Origin: Archangium lipolyticum
GTDB lineage: Bacteria; Myxococcota; Myxococcia; Myxococcales; Myxococcaceae
Reading direction: 5' to 3'
Assembly: GCF_024623785.1 (NCBI RefSeq)
Contig: NZ_JANKBZ010000057.1
Location: 1-38,828 of the forward strand
DNA length: 38,828 bases
Each line of letters opens with the position of its first letter. Position 1 is the stretch's first letter. The notes under the pieces were generated by a model. It was not told the DNA's origin. It searched no databases and saw nothing but the letters and a program-made list of their open reading frames with translations. A program made the translations under genes and the position numbers. This document shows positions 26,789 through 38,599 of this stretch, in pieces.

Positions 26789-27250
26789 CTAGCGGATGAC
26801 CGCCGCTCCGACGAAAGCCAGCAGCGCCAGCACCGCGGAGGTGGTTCGCGCCAGGTGAAGGCGCCGCCAGCGGCTCACGAGGTGTGAGATTTCAGCTGGG
26901 AGGGGAGGGGACTCGGGGCGCCAGGCGTGCACGCGTTTGTTGAGTGGCACATTGCCGAATTGCGAGATGACCGAGACCGTCGCGGTGAACGCCACACCGG
27001 CCACCACGAGAACGCGCGCCCACGTCCCCGGGAGCAGGAAGGCGAGGACGAGCCCGGTCAGGATCGTGAAGCCCGCGGTGAGAGGCATGTACCTCTCGAT
27101 GTAATGGTCCAGCACCTGGTGCATCCGGATGTACACATCCGAGGGGACCGATCGGAAGGCGGGGACGACGGCGGCGGCCACCATCACCAACCCTCCCACG
27201 AAGATCGCGATGCTGGTGAGCACCATCAGGGTCAGGACCGTGCTGTACAT
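26789..27250 (-). CDS. DUF1772 membrane protein, anthrone-oxygenase family
   Basis: This 153-residue protein has four predicted helices: TLMVLTSIAIFVGGLVMVAA, YMPLTAGFTILTGLVLAFLL, ARVLVVAGVAFTATVSVISQ and TTSAVLALLAFVGAAV. The family signature FGNVPLNKRV follows helix 3. DUF1772 includes the fungal anthrone oxidase HypC and bacterial relatives that turn anthrones into anthraquinones without metal or flavin. It is divergent from the small calycin-like gene and flavin hydroxylase at the edge of a type II polyketide cluster, which fits a tailoring role, although many DUF1772 proteins have no known function. ATG 27250 is chosen because the helix-1 signal anchor begins there; longer in-frame extensions are Arg-rich and unlikely. 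Confidence 0.78.
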   Translation of the reverse strand: MYSTVLTLMVLTSIAIFVGGLVMVAAAVVPAFRSVPSDVYIRMHQVLDHYIERYMPLTAGFTILTGLVLAFLLPGTWARVLVVAGVAFTATVSVISQFGNVPLNKRVHAWRPESPPLPAEISHLVSRWRRLHLARTTSAVLALLAFVGAAVIR

Positions 27251-27498
27251 ATTCCATTTCCGTTCACGAGAGTGATTCTGGAGACCTGCCCTGATAGGAA
27301 TGCCCGTCATGGCCGGCCTCGTCCCTGATTGGAGTCCGCCGGGGGAGATGTGACGGACGGTGGCGCCCAGGGCGGCTCTGGCCGGTTGCCCGGTGGCCGG
27401 GCGCCCGGAGCGGGGTCCGCTCGCCTGGCGGCCCTGGAGCGCCGACGTCACAAACGCGCTGGGGACTCCCTGTCGCAAGGAAAGGAGTCACTCGAGTC

Positions 27499-28017: not shown

Positions 28018-28052
28018 TCGTTCCTGCGTCTGGAAAAGAACCGGTGTTGGCA

Positions 28053-29738
28053 ATGGAAATGTTGGATGCATTGGTGGTGGGCGCGGGACCGACGGGGCTG
28101 ACGATGGCGGCGGAGTTGGCGCGGCACGGCCTGCGCTGCCGCATCGTGGACTCACTCGAAGCGCCCTCACGCCTGTCACGGGCGCTGGTGGTGCAATCGC
28201 GCACGGTGGAGCTCTTCGACGACTTCGACATGGCCGGAAAGCTGTTGGAGCGTGGGGAGGCCATGGGGGGCTACAACGTCATCGGCGCCGGTGGGAGGCG
28301 AGCGCGCATTCCCATGCGGCCCTTTCCCTGGTTGGAGACGCGCTACCCCATTCCGCACATGGTGCCCCAGGATGCGACCGAGGCGGTACTCACGGAGCAT
28401 CTCGCCTCGTTTGGCCTCTCGGTGGAATGGGCCGTGACGTTCGAGGGCTTCCGCGAGGACGCGGGGGGAATGGAGCTCACGCTGAAGCACCAGGATGGGA
28501 CGGAGGAGTCGGTGCGGGCGCGCTGGCTGCTCGGGTGCGACGGAGCCCGTAGCCGGGTGCGCAAGGCGGCGGACATCCCCTTCGAAGGCGAGACGTATGA
28601 CTACACGTGCATACTTGCGGACGTACGCGTGGACTGGCCCCTGGGACCCGGCGAGCTGTTCATCATTCCGTCCAGACATGGCGTGGTGGCCGCGTTCCCC
28701 ATGCCGGGAGAGAATCGCTACCGCCTCGTCTTGAACATGCCACGGGATGGCAAGGACGAGACGGAGCCGCCCACGTTGGAGCAGATACAGGCGCTGGTGG
28801 AGCGCATGATTCCAGTGCCCACGCGCCTGAGCGACCCCCTCTGGATGACCCGCTACCGGCAGCACCGGCTGGGCGTGCCCTACTACCGCAAGGGCCGCGT
28901 GTTCCTCGCGGGGGATGCGGCGCACATCCACAGCCCCGCGGGCGGTCAGGGCCTGAACACCGGCATCCAGGACGCATACAACCTGGCCTGGAAGCTGGCG
29001 CTCGTCACGCGGGGGCGCGCGCCGGAATCGCTGCTGGACACCTACGACCTGGAGCGGCACCGGGTGGGCCAGAAGTTGCTGGAGGGTACGGACAGGCGAT
29101 TCGCCCTGATCTCGAGCGGGGGCCTCGTGGTGCGGATGCTGCGGGCGCACGTGATGCCTCGCGCCGCGCGGTGGCTCTTCAAGACCTCCTTCATGGAGCG
29201 GAAGCTGCTGCGGTTCGTCTCCGAGCTGTTCATCCACTATCGGCACAGTCCCCTGTCCACCGAGTCCATCTCGGGCGAGGACGCGGGCGGAGTGCGAATC
29301 TCCGATGGGCCGGCCCCGGGAGAGCGGGTGCCGGACCTGCCGCTCCTGGGAGCGGGCGTGGAGCGCCTGCACGAGGTGCTGCGCGGCCCCCACCACACGT
29401 TGTTGCTGTTCGCCGGGCTGGTACCTGCTGGGAAGACGCCCGCGGCGCTGGAGTCGCTCGCGCGCCAGCTCGAGGCGTCCTACGGGCCCGAGCTGCTCCG
29501 GGTCCGCGTGGTGGCGACGGGAGCGCGATCCGGACCCTACACGCTGGCGGATGCGACGGGTGCGGTGCACCGGCGCTTCGGGGCGGGGGCGGCCTGCCTC
29601 TACCTGGTACGTCCAGACGGCTATGTGGGCCACCGGGCCCGGCCCATCCAGGTGAAATCCCTGGCGACGGAGCTCGCCGCACGCATGGGCCCGCCGCGCC
29701 AGGCGCCCGCGAGCGTGGAGCTGCAGGTCGCTGGTTGA
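28053..29738 (+). CDS. Class A FAD-dependent aromatic hydroxylase
   Basis: This 561-residue NAD(P)H-dependent flavoprotein belongs to the PgaE/RdmE/MtmOIV-like group that hydroxylates or opens aromatic polyketides. It has the FAD GxGxxG motif GAGPTG (10-15), the DG motif in LLGCDGARSRVRKA (163-164), and the GD motif in GRVFLAGDAAHIHSPAGGQG (287-288) followed by LNTGIQDAYNLAWKL. The last ~160 residues form the thioredoxin-like C-terminal domain common in this group (TLLLFAGLVPAGKTP, CLYLVRPDGYVGHRA). ATG 28053 has GGAAAAGAA upstream; GTG 28044 is a longer option. It ends in a strong bidirectional hairpin. Confidence 0.9.
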   Translation: MEMLDALVVGAGPTGLTMAAELARHGLRCRIVDSLEAPSRLSRALVVQSRTVELFDDFDMAGKLLERGEAMGGYNVIGAGGRRARIPMRPFPWLETRYPIPHMVPQDATEAVLTEHLASFGLSVEWAVTFEGFREDAGGMELTLKHQDGTEESVRARWLLGCDGARSRVRKAADIPFEGETYDYTCILADVRVDWPLGPGELFIIPSRHGVVAAFPMPGENRYRLVLNMPRDGKDETEPPTLEQIQALVERMIPVPTRLSDPLWMTRYRQHRLGVPYYRKGRVFLAGDAAHIHSPAGGQGLNTGIQDAYNLAWKLALVTRGRAPESLLDTYDLERHRVGQKLLEGTDRRFALISSGGLVVRMLRAHVMPRAARWLFKTSFMERKLLRFVSELFIHYRHSPLSTESISGEDAGGVRISDGPAPGERVPDLPLLGAGVERLHEVLRGPHHTLLLFAGLVPAGKTPAALESLARQLEASYGPELLRVRVVATGARSGPYTLADATGAVHRRFGAGAACLYLVRPDGYVGHRARPIQVKSLATELAARMGPPRQAPASVELQVAG

Positions 29739-29816: not shown

Positions 29817-30920
29817 TCAGTGCCGAGGGGACGCCAGGTGGTCCGCCATCCAGCGCCCCAGTCGCGGAAGGAAATCATCGGAGCGGTTCGCGCAGGTGTG
29901 GTTCTCCTCGGGGTAGGAAATCAGCTCCTTGTCACCTCGAGCCCAATCCAGCAAGCGGATGCAGGATTCATAGGGCACGACCGAGTCCAGCTTGCCATGG
30001 ATGGCGAGCAGGGGGGTGGTGGGCCGTGGAATCGCTCGCAGATTCAGCTCCTCCCGGCAGATCCGGTTCATGGCGGCATCGTTGGGCTGTCCGTACATGT
30101 ACCGGAACTCCTGGCGCACCAGCGGGCTCGAGCGGAGATGGTTGTCATGGTCGTACCCCGCCGAGATGCAGGCGCAGGCCTTGAGCTCGCGGGGGAGCAG
30201 AGCGGCGCTCCTCGCCGCCAGGTAGCCGCCATGGGCCAGACCGCAGATCCCGATCCGGTCGGAGTCGAGCTCCGGGAGCCGATGGGCCTGGGCCAGGACA
30301 CTCTCGACGACCTGCTCGAAGGGGATGACCATGCGGTGGATGCCCGCCAGCTCGCCCTGGCCGGGACCATCGAAGACCAGGACCGCCAGGCCCTGGGCCA
30401 GGAAGGCGCGCGCGAGGGCGAGCAGCTCGATCTCCTTGGCCGAGCTGAGGCTGTTCACCAGCAGGACGCATGGGACCGGTTCCTCCCAATGGGAGCGCAG
30501 GAGATAGGCCGGGAGCTTGTGATTCCCATGAGGGATGGACAGCGCCCGGACATCATAGGGGAGGAGCGGACTGGCCTGCCGGAAGATGCGCGTCACGCGC
30601 CGGCGCGTCATGAACTTCGCTTCGGGGTTGTCGAAGAACATGAGCTCCGCGAGGTGGTGGCAGGTGGCGGCCTTCAGCATCGCCTGCCGCTGTGTGGTGC
30701 GGTTGCCTCGCGCGGCCTCTCGAATGGCATGGCCCTCGAAGTCGTGCCCGATCCCCGTCCAGTGCGTGTGCCAGTCATTCCAGTCATCATGGAGCGCGTC
30801 GTCCCCCACCTCCTCGAGGGCGAGCACGATGTCCCTCCACTCGATACCCGATAGCTTCATGTGGGCGAGGAACGGCTCGCACTCCATGCGCAACGTATCG
30901 GGAATCTGCGCCTTCTTCAT
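29817..30920 (-). CDS. Alpha/beta hydrolase (FrsA/pseudooxynicotine-hydrolase-like) with Ala at the nucleophile
   Basis: This 367-residue protein has a ~120-residue helical N-terminal cap and a hydrolase core: VPCVLLVNSLSSAKEIE (oxyanion region), VLVFDGPGQGE, nucleophile elbow GICGLAHGGYLAARS, Asp312 (AIHGKLDSVVP) and His341 (SYPEENHTCANR). The elbow should read GxSxG, but position 229 is Ala (codon GCC); Asp and His remain. Relatives with Ser include FrsA-type C-C bond hydrolases, and AntI of Photorhabdus, which trims the polyketide chain in a type II anthraquinone pathway, has a similar length and layout. A non-hydrolytic cyclase or retro-aldol-type role is possible, as is loss of function. 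It is divergent from the polyketide operon. ATG 30920 was preferred; an in-frame TTG at 30989 is possible. Confidence 0.82.
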   Translation of the reverse strand: MKKAQIPDTLRMECEPFLAHMKLSGIEWRDIVLALEEVGDDALHDDWNDWHTHWTGIGHDFEGHAIREAARGNRTTQRQAMLKAATCHHLAELMFFDNPEAKFMTRRRVTRIFRQASPLLPYDVRALSIPHGNHKLPAYLLRSHWEEPVPCVLLVNSLSSAKEIELLALARAFLAQGLAVLVFDGPGQGELAGIHRMVIPFEQVVESVLAQAHRLPELDSDRIGICGLAHGGYLAARSAALLPRELKACACISAGYDHDNHLRSSPLVRQEFRYMYGQPNDAAMNRICREELNLRAIPRPTTPLLAIHGKLDSVVPYESCIRLLDWARGDKELISYPEENHTCANRSDDFLPRLGRWMADHLASPRH

Positions 30921-31148
30921 CGTCCACACATGAGCTTCCTGATTCTGCAAGGTCGTCCTCCTGGCATCCGCCTCTTCGGGGTACTCCAAGGAAGAGGGAC
31001 GGCCTTTTTGCTGTGACAGTCGCCCGTTCTCGCCTCCGGCCCCGGCTGCTCGCCTGCTGGGGAGGGCAGCACGAAATTCGAGATGAAGGGCGGATCACAG
31101 ACCGCGCCGATCTCATCTAGCTCCCATGTAACGCGGAGGTTGGATCGA
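30921..31148. promoter_or_regulatory. Divergent promoter region of the polyketide operon
   Basis: These 228 bases lie between the Ala-variant hydrolase and the first gene of the polyketide operon and must drive both. No regulator gene is adjacent and no clear operator stands out. The GGAGG site at about 31134-31138 serves the small ORF. Promoter elements were not resolved. Confidence 0.4.
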
Positions 31149-31343
31149 ATGGAAAACACAAGCACCATTCATCATGTGGCTGCATCGGTCGATCGACGCA
31201 AGGCCATTCACATCATGGCCAACTCGATGTTCCGCCAGCTCATGAACAGTGGCTATTCACACTCACACATCATCGATTTCACGTCAGAAATGCTGCAAAT
31301 CCTCACGGACTCGCTCCGGAGTCCCGTGATCGTCGACGAGTAG
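31149..31343 (+). CDS. Small unknown protein at the head of the polyketide operon
   Basis: This 64-residue cytosolic protein starts MENTSTIHHVAASVDRRKA, continues with a helical IHIMANSMFRQLMNSG segment and ends with SEMLQILTDSLRSPVIVDE. It is not GC-skewed like random sequence and has GGAGG 11 bases upstream of the ATG, so it is probably translated. The amidohydrolase gene starts 19 bases after its stop. I do not recognise it; helical content and lack of catalytic motifs suggest a regulatory or assembly role. Confidence 0.65.
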   Translation: MENTSTIHHVAASVDRRKAIHIMANSMFRQLMNSGYSHSHIIDFTSEMLQILTDSLRSPVIVDE

Positions 31344-31362: not shown

Positions 31363-32373
31363 ATGATCATCGACATCCACTCACATCTCGCCCATCCAGA
31401 GCTCGCAAGGCACGCACCGGTTCCTCCAAGCCTCCTGGACGTGGATCGCCTCATCGAAGTCAAGGCGGAGGCGGGGATCGACCTCACGTTCATCGGTAGC
31501 CCGAGCGGTCCCGGGACCCTGGTTCCGGCCTCGAGGGGTGGCAACTTCACGCAGCCACTGGACAAGCTGCGCGCCTTCCACGACTGGCTCGGCGCGACCG
31601 TCGCGGCGCACCGGACCCGGCTGCGGGCCTATGTCTACTGCGATCCGTTCGCGGACGACGCGATGCTCGCGGCAACCGAGGAGTACCTGCGCCGCGAGGA
31701 GTTCGTCGGGATCATGACCAATCCCAGCGCGCATGGTGAGTACCTCGATTCGCCCAGGGCGGACGCATTCTTCGCCTTCGCCGCCGGGTTGGATGTCCCG
31801 GTGATGATCCACTCCGGGATGGATCCCGTCTGCTGCCAGGGGATCTCCGACTACGGCATGTTCGACATGGTCGGCCGCTACTGCGACGTCACCCTCGGTC
31901 TGTCGGCGCTCGTGCTCTCCGGCCGGCTGGAACAGCACCCGTCGCTGCGCGTCATCGGCACGGCGAGCGGTGGAGCCCTGAGCCTGATCGGCTCCCGGTT
32001 GGACATGGCCTGGCGTTCTCAGCTCTGGGCCGGGGCGGGCAAGAAACCAGAAGGCCTCCGCGACCAGCGGACCCGCACGCCCCCGAGCGTGCTCCTGCGG
32101 CGGCTGTATGCCGATACCACCGCCGACAACCCCGATCTCCACCTCGCCAATCTGAAGGCGTTCGGAGCGGAGCATCTCCTGTTCGGCAGCGACTGGCCGC
32201 CGGTTCCCGTGGTCCACGCCGGAAAGATCCGCGAGGTCGAAGCGCTGCCCCTGTGTGACGAGGAGCGGCGGGCCATCCTCGGAGGCAATGCCTTGCGCGT
32301 CTTCGGCCTCGAAGGCCCGGTTCAACGAAGCACCCGGATGATGGATTCCCAGCAACCTGGGGAGGTCATGTGA
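31363..32373 (+). CDS. Amidohydrolase-2 family enzyme (ACMSD-like), putative polyketide decarboxylase
   Basis: This 336-residue TIM barrel has metal ligands His6 and His8 (IIDIHSHLAH), His150 (VPVMIHSGMD) and Asp277 (LFGSDWPPVP), in the order known from ACMSD and gamma-resorcylate-type decarboxylases. The usual additional His of the VxAHGGG strand is replaced by Ala/Ser (VIGTASGGAL). Relatives decarboxylate aromatic acids or hydrolyse C-C/C-N bonds. Its place as the second gene of a type II PKS operon suggests removal of the terminal carboxyl from the aromatic polyketide or an unusual hydrolysis. Its stop overlaps the next gene's start. Confidence 0.78.
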   Translation: MIIDIHSHLAHPELARHAPVPPSLLDVDRLIEVKAEAGIDLTFIGSPSGPGTLVPASRGGNFTQPLDKLRAFHDWLGATVAAHRTRLRAYVYCDPFADDAMLAATEEYLRREEFVGIMTNPSAHGEYLDSPRADAFFAFAAGLDVPVMIHSGMDPVCCQGISDYGMFDMVGRYCDVTLGLSALVLSGRLEQHPSLRVIGTASGGALSLIGSRLDMAWRSQLWAGAGKKPEGLRDQRTRTPPSVLLRRLYADTTADNPDLHLANLKAFGAEHLLFGSDWPPVPVVHAGKIREVEALPLCDEERRAILGGNALRVFGLEGPVQRSTRMMDSQQPGEVM

Positions 32374-32699
32374 TGTTGCACAGGAAGTTGATCGTGGCTC
32401 GGATGGATCCCTCCAGCGCGAGGGATGTGGCGGACATCTTCGCTGAATCCGACGCGGGGGAGCTCCCCCGGATGCTCGGTGTCACGCGTCGGGGACTGTT
32501 CCATTTCAAGGGGCTCTACTTCCACCTGTTCGAGTCGGAGCAGGAGGTCGATCCGCACCTCGCGGGCGTGCGTGAGCATCCGCTCTTCCTCGACGTGAAT
32601 ACCAGACTGGCCCGCTACATCTCGCCGTACGACCCCGCCACCTGGCGCGGTCCGAACGATGCCATGGCTCACGAGTTCTACTCCTGGCGCGCGAAGTGA
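32373..32699 (+). CDS. TcmI-family type II polyketide cyclase
   Basis: This 108-residue cyclase has the family pattern: [50 protein letters not shown] and [20 protein letters not shown] near the end. TcmI-type enzymes fold as dimeric ferredoxin-like barrels and close the later rings of aromatic polyketides. GGAGGT lies 7 bases before the ATG (32373); the start overlaps the amidohydrolase stop (ATGTGATG), and a GTG at 32370 is equivalent. Its stop overlaps the cupin gene's GTG, so translation is probably coupled. Confidence 0.88.
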
Positions 32700-33169
32700 G
32701 CCCTTCGAAAGCCGCGTCACAAGAAACTCCTCATTCCTCTGTCAATTCAATGAGCCAGACACAGATTACCAAGATCCTGACCAGCAATGCCCACCCGGAT
32801 CGTCGCCGTGGGGGCGAGGTGCGAGTCCTTCTCAGCCCGAAGACCGTGGGCTCCACTTCCGGATTCATGGGAGTGGCGAACCTCGAGCCCGGGGAGAGCA
32901 TCTCCGAGCACTACCACCCCTATTCGGAGGAGTTCCTCTACGTGACGCGAGGGTCGATCATCGCGCGCCTCGACGGGAACCCCATCTCCTTGAGCGCTGG
33001 CGAAGCCCTCCTGGTGCCGAAGAACACCCGTCACCGGCTGGAGAACCCCGGGACGGAGCCGGCTTCCCTCGTGTTCCAACTCGCCCCGCTGGCGCCCAGG
33101 CCGGAGTTGGGCCACGTCGACACCGAGCCCTACCCGGGCTCCGTGCAGGCCGCCGGAGGTGGGCGATGA
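32696..33169 (+). CDS. Cupin-domain protein of the polyketide cluster
   Basis: This is a 157-residue single cupin with motif 1 [17 protein letters not shown] (His, His, Glu metal ligands) and motif 2 [19 protein letters not shown]. Cupins of the TcmJ/RemF type accompany many type II PKS operons and act as ring-cyclisation helpers or oxygenases. The start is taken as GTG 32696, which overlaps the TcmI-like stop (GTGA); the ATG at 32750 is a plausible shorter start, but neither has a clear ribosome site. Its stop overlaps the KS-alpha start. Confidence 0.82.
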
Positions 33170-34437
33170 ATCGCCGCAGGGTCGCCCTGACTGGAATTGG
33201 TGTGGTCGCGCCGGGAGGCATCGGGGTCAAGGCCTTCTGGGAGCGGCTCCTCTCCGCGCGCTCCGCCATCCGCCGCATCTCCCTGTTCGATCCCACGAAC
33301 TTCCGTTCCCGGATCGCCGCGGAGTGCGACTTCGATCCGGCACGTGAGGGCCTGTCCCCGCAGGAGGTGCGCCGGATGGATCGCTGCGTCCAGTTCGCGG
33401 CCGTCGCCGCGCGCGAGGCGTTGGCGGATAGCGGGCTGAAATCGACGCCCAGCGAACCCCACCGGACGGGTGTCAGCATCGGCAGCGCGGTGGGTTGCAC
33501 GACGGCGCTGGAGGACGAGTACGTCGTCGTCAGCGATGGAGGCCGCAAGTGGCAGGTGGATCCGGCCTACGCCACGCCGCACCTGTACCTCAGCCTGATT
33601 CCGAGCACGCTCGCCACGGAGGTGGCCTGGCTGGCCGGAGCCGAGGGCCCCGCGACCGTCATTTCCAACGGGTGCACCTCGGGACTGGACGCGGTGGGTC
33701 ATGCCTTCCAGCTCATCGAGGAGGGCTCGGCGGACGTGATGATCACCGGTGCGTCGGATGCACCCATCTCGCCCATCTCCGTCGCCTGCTTCGACGCCAT
33801 CAAGGCCACTTCGCCCAACAACGACGATCCGGAGCATGCCAGCCGCCCATTCGACCTGAACCGCGATGGCTTCGTGCTGGGTGAAGGGGCCGCGATCTTC
33901 GTGCTCGAGGAGCTCGAGCATGCGCGCCGGCGGGGCGCCCACATCTACTGCGAGGTCGTCGGCTTCGCCTGCCGGGCCAATGCCTACCACATGACCGGCC
34001 TGCGCCCCGACGGCGAGGAGATGGCCGAGGCCATCCGGGTGGCGATGCGGCAGGCGCGAATGGACCCGGAGCGCATCGGCTACATCAACGCGCACGGCTC
34101 CAGCACGCGGCAGAACGACAGACACGAGACGGCGGCCTTCAAGAAGAGCCTGGGCCACCATGCGTACAAGACGCCGGTCAGCTCCATCAAGTCGGTGATC
34201 GGCCACTCACTGGGCGCCATCGGCTCCCTGGAGATCGCGGCCTGCGCACTGACCATCCAGCGGGGAGTGATTCCTCCCACGGCCAACCTGCGCACGCCCG
34301 ATCCGGAATGCGATCTCGACTACGTACCCCAGGTTCCACGCGAGCAGCGGGTGGACGCGGTCCTCAGCGTCGGTAGCGGCTTCGGCGGCTTCCAGACGGC
34401 CATGTTGCTTGCTCGCTCGAAGGAGGTTTCGTCTTGA
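33166..34437 (+). CDS. Type II PKS ketosynthase alpha (KS-alpha)
   Basis: This 423-residue beta-ketoacyl synthase extends malonyl units on the ACP in complex with the chain-length factor. The triad is intact: Cys170 in [16 protein letters not shown], His310 in [15 protein letters not shown], and His347 in [14 protein letters not shown]. The [10 protein letters not shown] active-site motif is the type II PKS variant instead of the FabF one. GFVLGEGA and [10 protein letters not shown] are also present. ATG 33166 overlaps the cupin stop (ATGA); its own stop overlaps the TTG start of the CLF. This is the diagnostic gene of the cluster. Confidence 0.96.
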
Positions 34438-35666
34438 ATGCACTCGAAAGTGGCCGTGCCGTCATCACCGGCATCTCGGCCATTGCCCCCAACGGACTGG
34501 GCGTCCGCGCCTGGTGGGAGGCCACGCTGAGCGGTCGCAGTGGCCTCCAGCGTCCCACCCGGTTCGATCCTGGCGTCTATCCGATCCAGCTCGCGGGCGA
34601 GGTCCGCGATTTCAAACCCTCCCAGCTGGTGGATGGACGGCTCATCGTCCAGACCGATCTCTGGACGCAGTTCGGCTTGGCCGCCACCTCCATGGCCCTG
34701 GAGGACGCCCGGCTCGACCCCCGGAAGCTGCCGGCGTACGAGATGTCCGTCGTCAGCGCCAGCTCCTCGGGTGGCAATGAGTTCGGCCAGCGGGAGATCG
34801 AGCGGTTGTGGAGCAAGGGCCCACAATTCGTGAGCGTGTACCAGTCCATCGGCTGGTTCTACGCGGCGAGCACGGGACAGCTGTCGATCAAGCACGGGAT
34901 GAAGGGAACCTGCTCCTCGGTGGTGTCCGAGCAGGCCGGAGGGCTGGACGCGGTAGGCCATGCCCGCCGGGTGCTGCGCAATGGCTCGCGCATGGTCCTC
35001 ACGGGGGGCACGGAGGCACCCTTGAGTCCCTATGCGCTGACCTGCCAGCTCACCAATGGCCTGCTCAGCCGGCGGGGAGATCCCTCCCGGGCCTACGTCC
35101 CCTTCGACGCGGAGGCTTCCGGCTACGTGGCTGGTGAAGGGGGCGCCATGTTCATCCTGGAGGATGGGGCGGCCGCCCGGGCGCGCGGTGTCGAACGGGT
35201 CTACGGGGAGATCGCCGGATATGCCGCCACCTTCGATCCGCGGCCGGGCTCCGGCCGTGAGCCGGGGCTGTACCGCGCCGCCGAGCAGGCGCTCTCCGAC
35301 GCGGGTATCACCCCAGCCGACATCGACGTCGTGTTCGCGGATGCGGCCGGCGTTCCCGAGCTCGACCGCATCGAGGCCGACGCCCTCATCCGCATGTTCG
35401 GGCCTCGCGGTGTGCCGGTCACCGCGCCGAAGACGATGACTGGCCGCCTGTACGCCGGAGGAGCGGCCCTGGATGTCGTCGCGGCACTGCTCACAATCGC
35501 CGACTCGGTCATTCCACCCACCGTGGGAACCAGAGAGCTCGCACCGGGCTGTGACATCGACCTGGTTCGCGACGAGCCGAGGAAGAAGCTGGTGCGAAAC
35601 GCGCTGGTGCTCGCCCGAGGCTTCGGAGGCTTCAACTCGGCCGTCGTGGTGCGGCGCGCCGAGTGA
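34434..35666 (+). CDS. Type II PKS chain-length factor (KS-beta, CLF)
   Basis: This 410-residue ketosynthase-like partner heterodimerises with KS-alpha and sets chain length. The nucleophile Cys is replaced by Gln167 in [15 protein letters not shown], the classic CLF substitution that gives a decarboxylating, priming partner. Other family motifs are [25 protein letters not shown] and [14 protein letters not shown]. The start is TTG 34434, forced by frame and supported by AAGGAGG 7 bases upstream; it overlaps the KS-alpha stop as TTGA, so the two subunits are translated together. The product length cannot be read by eye. Confidence 0.95.
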
Positions 35667-35684: not shown

Positions 35685-36482
<798 letters not shown>

Positions 36483-36483
36483 C

Positions 36484-37230
36484 ATGGAGAACGCAATGCA
36501 GCTCGATTTGAAGGGTAGGAGTGCACTGGTCACCGGCGGTTCCCGAGGCATCGGGCGCGCCATCACGCTCGCGCTCGCACGGCAGGGAGTCAACGTGGTG
36601 ACCTGCTACCGGCGGGAGAGCGAGGCGGTGGAGTCGCTGGCCCGGGAGGCCAGGGTGCTCGGGAACGTGGAGCTCGTCCAGGCGGACGTGAGCCGGGAGG
36701 AGGAGGTGGTCCGGCTGCTCGAGAAGTGCCGCGAGCGCCTCGGAAGGCTGGACATCGTGGTGAACAATGCCGGAGCGATCAGCCACGTCCCCCTGTCCGA
36801 TCTCACCCAGACGGAGTGGCATCGGATGCTGGACACCAACCTCACGTCCGTCTTCCTGGTCATCCGTGAAGCACTGCCCCTCCTGTCGGACGGGGCCTCG
36901 GTGATCAACGTCGGGTCGAGTGTCGCCACGCGCGGGATGGCGGCCGGTGCACATTACACGGCCTCGAAGGCGGGTCTCATCGGCCTGACCCGCTCGTTGT
37001 GCAAGGAGTTGGGGCCGCGAGGCATCCGCGTCAACACCCTGGCACCGGGCATCATCGAGACAGACATGGTGTCCAGGCTGACGCCCGAGCAGCGCAAGAA
37101 GTACGAGGCCATGTCCGCGGTGGGCCGGCTCGGCCAGGCGGACGACATCGCCGGTGCGGTGCTCTACCTGGCCAGCGATCTCTCCCGGTTCGTTTCTGGA
37201 GTCACTCTCGAAGTCAATGGAGGCATCTGA
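36484..37230 (+). CDS. SDR-family polyketide ketoreductase
   Basis: This is a 248-residue FabG-like NADPH ketoreductase with the cofactor motif TGGSRGIG (17-24), NNAG (94-97), catalytic Ser145/146, Tyr158 and Lys162 (YTASK), and Asn119. Type II PKS ketoreductases of this kind reduce one carbonyl of the nascent chain, commonly C-9, steering first-ring folding; position here is inference. Its stop overlaps the next ATG (TGATG), and CATGGAG-type purines precede its start. Confidence 0.92.
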   Translation: MENAMQLDLKGRSALVTGGSRGIGRAITLALARQGVNVVTCYRRESEAVESLAREARVLGNVELVQADVSREEEVVRLLEKCRERLGRLDIVVNNAGAISHVPLSDLTQTEWHRMLDTNLTSVFLVIREALPLLSDGASVINVGSSVATRGMAAGAHYTASKAGLIGLTRSLCKELGPRGIRVNTLAPGIIETDMVSRLTPEQRKKYEAMSAVGRLGQADDIAGAVLYLASDLSRFVSGVTLEVNGGI

Positions 37231-37550
37231 TGTACGACAAGATTTTCCGTGTGGAGCTCACGATGGATGTCCAGCCCGGTACCGAGCAGGAGTTCGAGCG
37301 GGTCTGGTTGGAAGTGGGCCAGACCGTGGCGGATCATCCCGACAATATCTCCCAGTGGCTGTCCGCCAGCCGCGAATCCCCGGGGAAGTATCTCATCATC
37401 AGCGACTGGCCCGACGAGGAGACCTTCCGCCGGTTCGAGCAGAGCTGGGAGCACGCCGCGCACCTCGAGAAGCTCCGGAAGGTACGCGCCAGGGGCACCA
37501 TGGAAACGATGACGGTCCTGCACCACATTCCAGGAGCGCGCGACCGATGA
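37230..37550 (+). CDS. ABM-family monooxygenase 1 (ActVA-Orf6-like)
   Basis: This 106-residue dimeric alpha-beta-barrel protein includes KIFRVELTMDVQPGTEQEFE, a central KYLIISDWPDEETFRRFE and METMTVLHHIPG. ABM proteins such as ActVA-Orf6 oxidise anthrones or other phenols to quinones without cofactor or metal. It starts on the SDR stop codon (TGATG), and its own stop overlaps the next ABM gene (ATGA), so it is embedded in the operon. Cyclase relatives share the fold, so an exact reaction is not certain. Confidence 0.83.
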   Translation: MYDKIFRVELTMDVQPGTEQEFERVWLEVGQTVADHPDNISQWLSASRESPGKYLIISDWPDEETFRRFEQSWEHAAHLEKLRKVRARGTMETMTVLHHIPGARDR

Positions 37551-37843
37551 CGGCACGGGCTCGGGTGATGCTCTTCGTCCAGGCTCCGGAGGGGAAGCGC
37601 TCCACCATCGAGGAGCTCTACAGGCAGGTCAGTGGTGTCCTGGATGGGACACCCGGGCTCCTCCGGAACGAGTTGTTGCACTCCTGCTCCAAGCCGACGG
37701 ATTTCGTCGTGTTGAGCGAGTGGGAGAGCCTGGAGTCCTTTCGTGCCTGGGAGCAGGGGCCCGTCCACCGCGGGAACATGCTGGAGTCCTTGCGCCAGTA
37801 CACGACAGGGGCCGCGTTCTACGAAGTGCTCGCGGCGTTCTGA
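37547..37843 (+). CDS. ABM-family monooxygenase 2
   Basis: This is a 98-residue second member of the same fold (ARVMLFVQAPEGKRSTIEEL, DFVVLSEWESLESFRAWEQG, TGAAFYEVLAAF). It is only distantly similar to its neighbour, so not a recent duplicate; the pair may form a heterodimer or act on two different positions. Start ATG 37547 overlaps the upstream stop. It is the last gene before a tandem hairpin. Confidence 0.8.
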   Translation: MTARARVMLFVQAPEGKRSTIEELYRQVSGVLDGTPGLLRNELLHSCSKPTDFVVLSEWESLESFRAWEQGPVHRGNMLESLRQYTTGAAFYEVLAAF

Positions 37844-37963: not shown

Positions 37964-38599
37964 ATGAATATCGCGCTCTTTGGCGCCACGGGCGCCACCG
38001 GACACCTCGTCCTGGAGCAGGCGCTGGCTCGAGGCCACACGGTCACGGCCCTGGTCCGGACTCCCTCCAAGCTGACCACGACTCATGAGCGGCTCAAGAT
38101 CGTTCAAGGTGACGTGACCGATCCCTCCGCCGTGGAGAAGACCGTCGCCGGGCAGGATGCGGTGATCTCCACCATCGGCTCCGGCTCGAATACGAAGCAC
38201 GTGACCCTCTACTCCACCAGCATCCGCAACATCATCGATGCGATGGAGAAGCAGAAGGTGGAGCGCCTGCTGTGTATCTCGGCGGGCGGTGCCTATCCAG
38301 GCAAGGATCCTGGCGCACCCTTCATCCTCAACTACATCGTCAAGCCGTTCTTCCTCAAGGACGTCTTCGCGGACATGGCGCGCATGGAGGAGGCGGTCAA
38401 ACAGAGCAAGCTGGCCGCCTGGACCATCGTCCGGCCGCCCAGGCTGGTGGACACCCCCGCGACTGGCAGGTACCGGCAGGAGCCGACCTACTGCATCAAG
38501 GGCGGGAACAAGATTTCCCGGGCGGACCTGGCGTCATTCATCGTCGGACAACTGGACGCCGGGGAGTACCTCCGCAAGGGCGTTGCCGTCGCCTACTAG
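37964..38599 (+). CDS. NAD(P)-binding reductase (atypical SDR, SDR_a5/NmrA-like)
   Basis: This 211-residue Rossmann-fold protein starts MNIALFGATGATGHLVLEQA. The glycine motif GATGATG is followed by AVISTIGSGSNTKHVTLYST and WTIVRPPRLVDTPATG. This group includes flavin or quinone reductases and NADH-dependent tailoring enzymes. ATG 37964 follows GGAAGGCATCTGT. It is separated from the operon by two hairpins, so it may have its own promoter; position suggests reduction of a quinone or enone intermediate (inference). The stop is directly before repeat DNA. Confidence 0.85.
   Translation: MNIALFGATGATGHLVLEQALARGHTVTALVRTPSKLTTTHERLKIVQGDVTDPSAVEKTVAGQDAVISTIGSGSNTKHVTLYSTSIRNIIDAMEKQKVERLLCISAGGAYPGKDPGAPFILNYIVKPFFLKDVFADMARMEEAVKQSKLAAWTIVRPPRLVDTPATGRYRQEPTYCIKGGNKISRADLASFIVGQLDAGEYLRKGVAVAY

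Follow-up and report, generated by a model that had tools for sequence, protein, structure and literature searches.

The window analysed here, a 38,828-nucleotide stretch of Archangium lipolyticum DNA, is one whole contig of the 12.6-Mb genome of this soil myxobacterium and contains a type II polyketide synthase (PKS) cluster (Table 1). The α/β-hydrolase gene that is the subject of this analysis is placed inside the cluster, between an FAD monooxygenase gene and the PKS operon, as the first-pass annotation had stated when it described a hydrolase beside a PKS operon. The gene is divergent from the operon, and a small 86-aa frame lies in between. The PF04673 cyclase of the operon, which we take to be of the TcmI type, is followed by a cupin that, judged by its position, is probably TcmJ-like. 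The ketosynthase (KS) α is 70% identical to the KS of Nonomuraea typhae (L022:6654-7901), and its best PDB match is the actinorhodin KS (1tqy, 2e-179, versus 1.4e-91 for a chain of 6smo, presumably AntDE); it is much nearer to the actinorhodin enzyme than to any other solved KS. This likeness suggests transfer between phyla, and, to judge from its sequence, the host cluster is an actinomycete-like type II PKS cluster. Among the 96 genomes of the family, KS matches at E ≤ 1e-125 were found only in the window genome, in genome G073 and in Pyxidicoccus fallax (G056), and a search for the PF04673 cyclase gene (E ≤ 1e-6) gave a match in a single genome, that of the window itself. In a search of six genomes, the small 86-aa protein matched both other clusters that encode a hydrolase of the type described below (E of 5e-9 and 1.3e-8, with the remaining matches at ∼0.005). 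The three proteins share a conserved stretch of ∼45 residues around SSLFRxLxxxGYSxSH (in the other two loci, near position 17476 of L011 and near position 19154 of L013).

Table 1. Genes of the cluster and active-site codons of the hydrolase, in positions of the window
Feature	Position	Strand	Basis
Anthrone-oxygenase family protein (PF08592), further left of the FAD hydroxylase	26792..27478	-	Pfam
FAD aromatic-ring hydroxylase (FAD_binding_3 + Rng_hyd_C)	28044..29738	+	domains
AntI-type α/β-hydrolase, helical N-terminal cap, Ser replaced by Ala229	29817..30920	-	translation, Pfam, PDB match, AlphaFold2 model
His341 codon CAC (AntI His355); absent from both sister proteins	29898..29900	-	codon reading, alignment column
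Asp312 codon GAC (AntI Asp326)	29985..29987	-	codon reading, alignment column
His230 codon CAT, elbow+1	30231..30233	-	codon reading, alignment column
Ala229 codon GCC, place of the catalytic Ser (AntI Ser245)	30234..30236	-	codon reading, alignment column
Ser159 codon AGC, place of AntI Asp175 in the GLDS loop	30444..30446	-	codon reading, alignment column
Small 86-aa protein, common to both other clusters with a Ser-less hydrolase	31083..31343	+	sequence match
Amidohydrolase 2 family (PF04909), gene 1 of the PKS operon	31363..32373	+	Pfam
Polyketide synthesis cyclase (PF04673)	32370..32699	+	Pfam
Cupin	32696..33169	+	domain
Ketosynthase α	33166..34437	+	domain, PDB match
Chain length factor (KS β)	34434..35666	+	domain
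Acyl carrier protein	35713..35988	+	domain
Aromatase/cyclase (PF03364)	35985..36482	+	Pfam
Ketoreductase (SDR)	36484..37230	+	domain
ABM monooxygenase 1 (PF03992)	37227..37550	+	Pfam
ABM monooxygenase 2 (PF03992)	37550..37843	+	Pfam
NAD(P)H-binding protein (PF13460)	37964..38599	+	Pfam

The hydrolase frame is open and encodes 367 aa from an ATG at position 30920; a start at the alternative TTG at 30989, which is in frame, would lengthen the protein by 23 residues. The codons of the nucleophile elbow, GGT CTG GCC CAT GGC GGC, read GLAHGG (wider context ICGLAHGGY), and alignments place A229, D312 and H341 in the Ser, Asp and His columns of the catalytic triad. Codons and alignment columns thus agree with the initial reading of the window copy, in which the nucleophile was replaced by Ala and the Asp and His were in place. 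The protein matches the Pfam FrsA-like family (PF06500) with 53 bits (3.2e-14; gathering cut-off 22), and scores 65.3 bits against the FrsA equivalog model NF003460, which has a curated cut-off of 477. Its best PDB sequence matches are AntI (5.5e-37), 2,6-dihydroxy-pseudooxynicotine hydrolase (1.8e-27) and FrsA (4e-13). The AlphaFold2 model of the Ala form, built from 44 sequences (mean pLDDT 93.7), has a predicted AntI-like core and a helical N-terminal cap, and the top structural match in the PDB is AntI (6hxa; Z of 46.9, rmsd of 2.5 over 360 residues), followed by pseudooxynicotine hydrolase, FrsA and then, closely, the fungal Ayg1-type enzymes; Foldseek returned the same top three. The kinship with these three enzymes that had been proposed for the hydrolase therefore holds in both sequence and structure. 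A confident model was also obtained for the Gly form from P. fallax described below (pLDDT 89.3, from 28 sequences).

To place the replacement within the family, relatives were collected from the 96 family genomes at E ≤ 1e-30. Matches were present in four of them: two copies in the window genome, one in G006, two in P. fallax and two in G073. When the search was extended to 195 genomes of the phylum, seven had a match, and the three new ones were distant (30–32% identity) and of the Ser type. Extraction at E ≤ 1e-20 from the loci collected yielded 111 hits, or 103 distinct rows after identical sequences were merged. Among the matches listed, the triad states in these rows are S/D/H in 96, A/D/H in four and G/D/L in two, with one fragment that contributes only the S; with AntI added, the nucleophile column of the resulting 104-row alignment, gathered by similarity among the matches listed, contains 98 S, four A and two G. 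In an alignment-based scan, the best 80 of 481 relatives were used, and some rare forms without Ser may therefore have been overlooked. Searches centered on the actinobacterial and on the gammaproteobacterial relatives (341, 390, 369 and 394 genomes; E ≤ 1e-45, in one case 1e-30, with up to five first-look candidates scored per genome) contributed nothing beyond the genome already known, and a single-protein scan of the genome contigs with the window hydrolase found no relative. A plasmid search returned 111 records, all below 60% identity, 10 of which, among the matches listed, were at 29–33%.

The rows nearest to the window hydrolase are one copy from G073 (55% identity) and one from P. fallax (51%), both of which read GLGHGG at the elbow, while the second copies of these two genomes read GASFGG and the second copy of the window genome reads GVSYGG. 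In a maximum-likelihood tree of 33 rows (32 hand-chosen from the 103, plus AntI), the window protein and the two Gly proteins form a Ser-less clade with support of 100/100, whose sister group consists of the Ser-type copies found in G073 and P. fallax (96/94). An AntI clade of 11 of the 33 chosen rows (100/99) contains the three Ser-less proteins, Ser-type copies, AntI itself, and proteins of Zooshikella, Nonomuraea and Herbihabitans, and leaves the other FrsA/POH-like proteins outside; AntI is on a long branch, and its exact place is therefore unsure. The 70% identity of the two KSs had suggested that the window hydrolase might be sister to the Nonomuraea AntI-like protein, but the AU test rejected this placement (p of 1.5e-73). 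On the 33 chosen rows, the fewest changes that explain the presence and absence of Ser are two, one of them in the myxobacterial Ser-less clade and the other in a clade of alphaproteobacterial proteins that reads GMAFGG. The loss of Ser is thus real, old and shared by three genomes of two genera, G073 and P. fallax being congeners. A sequencing error or a recent loss is ruled out, since the Ser-less state is common to the two other genomes and is coupled to a His at elbow+1. The first-pass annotation had asked whether the Ala is kept in orthologues and had named orthologues with Ser as the result that would speak for such an error. None of the two nearest orthologue-like proteins has Ser; the loss is shared, but both carry Gly, and the Ala itself is not conserved. 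The alphaproteobacterial Ala forms, which are FrsA/POH-like and keep Asp and His (L059:1507-2679, L073:10963-12048 and L094:6014-7075), appear from their sequences and position in the tree to be an independent second loss of Ser. Each of their contigs encodes a Ser-type copy as well, and the two frames of the L073 pair overlap by a few bases.

Comparison with the other eight rows of the AntI clade indicates that the nucleophile is not the only position that has changed. The Ser column is A in the window and G in both sister proteins, and S in all eight others; elbow+1 is His in all three Ser-less proteins and Phe or Tyr in the eight others, and is His in only these three of the 104 rows among the matches listed. 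The acid of the GLDS loop is replaced by S in the window, where the loop reads SLSS with its Leu kept, and by G in both sisters, versus D or E in the eight others and 84 D, eight E and one N in the remaining 93 rows among the matches listed. The exchanges that are common to the whole Ser-less clade, in AntI numbering, are therefore S245 to A/G, F/Y246 to H and D175 to S/G. Asp312 has a counterpart in all three members. The place of AntI His355 is occupied by His341 in the window, and in both Gly sisters by Leu followed by an eight-residue deletion. The gate residues of AntI, Arg282 and Asp327, correspond to Pro and Ser in the window (Tyr20 is outside the AntI stretch that was aligned), but they do not define the clade because seven of the eight Ser-type rows of the AntI clade also lack them. 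A His at elbow+1 occurs in ordinary lipases (GHSHGG), and hence is no proof of new chemistry.

Selection was estimated from pairs of G073 and P. fallax genes with a simple count-based method; the genomes are rich in GC. The Ser-less pair (73% aa identity, 344 codons) has a dN/dS of 0.45. The value is 0.28 in the Ser-type copy and 0.23 in the cyclase, and the KS, the ketoreductase (KR) and a neighboring AMP-binding/cyclase fusion all stand at 0.20; for a Ser-type pair taken from G000 and G006, dN/dS is 0.15. The Ser-less sister pair is under relaxed yet purifying selection, as it is constrained, but less so than the five other genes compared between the two genomes (0.45 versus 0.20–0.28). These values apply to the sister pair, the window copy being without an orthologue near enough for the calculation. 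In G073 as in P. fallax, the Ser-less gene comes first in a series that continues with genes for a PF04199 cyclase, an aromatase/cyclase (ARO/CYC), KR, KS and chain length factor (CLF). The same order is found in a second cluster of the window genome (contig C2), in which the Ser-type copy comes first and the aromatase/cyclase has two domains.

Among characterized proteins, AntI of Photorhabdus, an off-loading, trimming and cyclising lyase, is closest to the window hydrolase. The two share fold, cap and clade as well as a type II PKS neighborhood, and the Asp and His of AntI are also present in the window copy. They differ in the nucleophile (Ser versus Ala), the GLDS loop (versus SLSS), elbow+1 (Phe versus His) and the Arg/Asp gate (versus Pro/Ser), and the KS of the window cluster is actinorhodin-like. 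Afyg1p and Wdyg1p (8qd1 and 8qd7), polyketide-shortening hydrolases of fungal aromatic pigment pathways, have a similar fold (Z of 36–37, with 18–19% identity over the structural alignment) and have a Ser nucleophile (PMC11165489). The window model also shares its fold and helical cap with 2,6-dihydroxy-pseudooxynicotine hydrolase (2jbw; Z of 44.6), which has Ser in its elbow, and with FrsA (3mve and 3our; Z of ∼39), although the hydrolase scores far below the FrsA equivalog cut-off. At the level of the whole cluster, the order of acyA–K in the aggregicyclin cluster (acyA–M) of Aggregicoccus edonensis, as described in PMC13213394, equals that of the window operon (order, not sequence, was compared): hydrolase-type enzyme, TcmI-like AcyB, TcmJ-like AcyC, KS, CLF, ACP, TcmN-like AcyG (ARO/CYC), ketoreductase AcyH and monooxygenases AcyI–K. 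The place of acyA, whose product is reported to be of the hydrolase type, of unstated family, and to possess an oxyanion hole, is taken in the window by the amidohydrolase, and that of the third oxygenase by the NAD(P)-binding protein; that report proposes a biaryl-ether step, and no AntI-type enzyme is named in the main-text sections covered here (PMC13213394). Among the titles and abstract openings of the literature on serine-less hydrolase-fold proteins in polyketide work, which were covered in part, the Ser-less clade is not described.

Mutants of AntI and Afyg1p bear directly on what the window protein may do. According to PMC11165489, AntI Ser245Ala yields no AQ-256 in vivo and His355Ala likewise none, the octaketide shunt product aloesaponarin II being formed instead, Asp326Ala behaves like the wild type, and Afyg1p Ser257Ala binds a naphthalene ligand identically to the wild type. 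An AntI form in which Ser has naturally given way to Ala should therefore neither trim nor off-load, while ligand binding may persist. However, two GLDS-loop residues of AntI, Asp175 and Leu174, touch the surrogate ligand (PMC11165489), and the loss of this Asp means that binding may differ. The same mutants weaken the proposal that Asp312 and His341 support altered catalysis in place of the nucleophile, either a general-base retro-Claisen reaction or a Dieckmann-type cyclisation, which we regard as improbable. In its favor, the window copy has both residues and keeps the Leu of the GLDS loop, and the closed form of AntI has been proposed to carry out a Dieckmann closure as its last step (PMC11165489). 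Retention of Asp and His had been taken as the sign of a changed mechanism, but the His is absent from both sister proteins and the GLDS-loop acid has been lost in all three. As AntI S245A and H355A are without product and D326A is unaffected, an Asp/His pair is not known from that report to be sufficient, and retro-Claisen cleavage by these two residues alone is without support (PMC11165489).

The reading that we prefer, and to which we give about as much credence as doubt, is that the window hydrolase is a nucleophile-less AntI paralogue that is kept for a non-hydrolytic role in binding, folding or ring closure. The evidence supports the view that covalent catalysis was lost long ago, and in a loss common to all three members, from an AntI paralogue that is tied to aromatic polyketide clusters. 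The nucleophile would have been lost in the ancestor of a small Myxococcaceae clade that retained the AntI-type paralogue. Its product would be unable to form an acyl-enzyme, so chain trimming or off-loading of the AntI kind would not occur. The pocket between cap and core would be retained and could bind an aromatic polyketide intermediate there, and the protein might aid a non-covalent step by keeping the chain in place while a ring closes or by shielding it, with hydrolysis left to another enzyme. If the Ser-less protein is non-hydrolytic, the product of the cluster would be expected at full chain length. In line with the preferred reading, a PF04673 cyclase, a cupin and an ARO/CYC are all encoded in the window cluster itself. 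Several observations count against it: transcription of the hydrolase gene runs in the direction opposite to the PKS operon, the clade has three known members from two genera, and in the Ser-less pair dN/dS is roughly double that of the five other genes compared and the His position is followed by a deletion, which would also suit slow decay. A more specific version, in which the exchanges of Ser for Ala or Gly and of Phe or Tyr for His founded a nucleophile-free site whose oxyanion hole and His230 close a ring or ether bridge on a full-length polyketide, we consider unlikely; if true, it would be a case of a chain-shortening lyase turned cyclase. Hydrolase-fold proteins that became cyclases after loss of the triad are represented by the carboxylesterase-like [4+2] cyclases of Apocynaceae (PMC10873640). 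These are a precedent for how a protein of the preferred, non-hydrolytic kind could work, but they belong to another family, act on plant alkaloids, and, as described there, have mainly the His replaced rather than the Ser (PMC10873640).

The Ser-less protein could instead be a pseudoenzyme that forms a dimer with a Ser-type homologue or regulates it, a reading that we think has a small but real chance of being correct. A Ser-type copy is also present in all three Ser-less genomes and in four of the 96 family genomes (E ≤ 1e-30), a co-occurrence with a hypergeometric probability of 2.8e-5 when genomes are treated as independent, which they are not, two of the three being congeners. In G073, the two copies start 11.7 kb apart, and among the fungal relatives both Afyg1p and Wdyg1p form homodimers (PMC11165489). 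The window genome, however, has its Ser-type copy on a separate contig, and this copy belongs to a different PKS cluster and to a different branch of the tree. The independent alphaproteobacterial Ala clade shares its contig with a Ser-type copy in three of three cases, but this pairing is biased because the L073 and L094 Ala forms were seen only as the flank of a Ser-type hit. The stepwise loss of active-site residues, the faster evolution of the sister pair and its deletion after the His position would also be expected of a former trimming enzyme that is being lost by neutral decay. The frames are nevertheless intact in three genomes, the clade spans two genera, the dN/dS of the sister pair is below 1, His230 is present in all three proteins and the predicted folds are confident, so decay is in our view decidedly unlikely.

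AntI and the fungal Ayg1-type enzymes set the final length of aromatic polyketides, and chain shortening should not be predicted from an AntI match alone. The Ser-less AntI clade offers a case, open to experiment, in which a biosynthetic hydrolase would have lost hydrolysis and yet been retained, and a natural, shared nucleophile-less AntI in PKS clusters, in genomes that also encode Ser-type paralogues, may separate the binding and folding role of the scaffold from cutting.

Several minor features of the related loci were also recorded. The P. fallax cluster may be the pyxidicycline cluster; a custom pentapeptide-repeat pattern, used to look into this identity, had zero matches in the stretches examined. 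Metallo-β-lactamase-fold proteins are encoded in two of the clusters (L013:19353-20000 and L022:8419-9399), and it is possible that they are independent off-loading thioesterases. A multicopper oxidase gene, identified by a Pfam match, adjoins the Ser-type AntI-like gene in G073 (L012:239-1837), and the flank of the Ser-type gene in P. fallax contains a frame that is 82% identical to this oxidase and ends at the contig end (L015:2-1411). The combination of a multicopper oxidase with an AntI-like gene recalls the laccase and Ayg1 pair of fungal melanin clusters.
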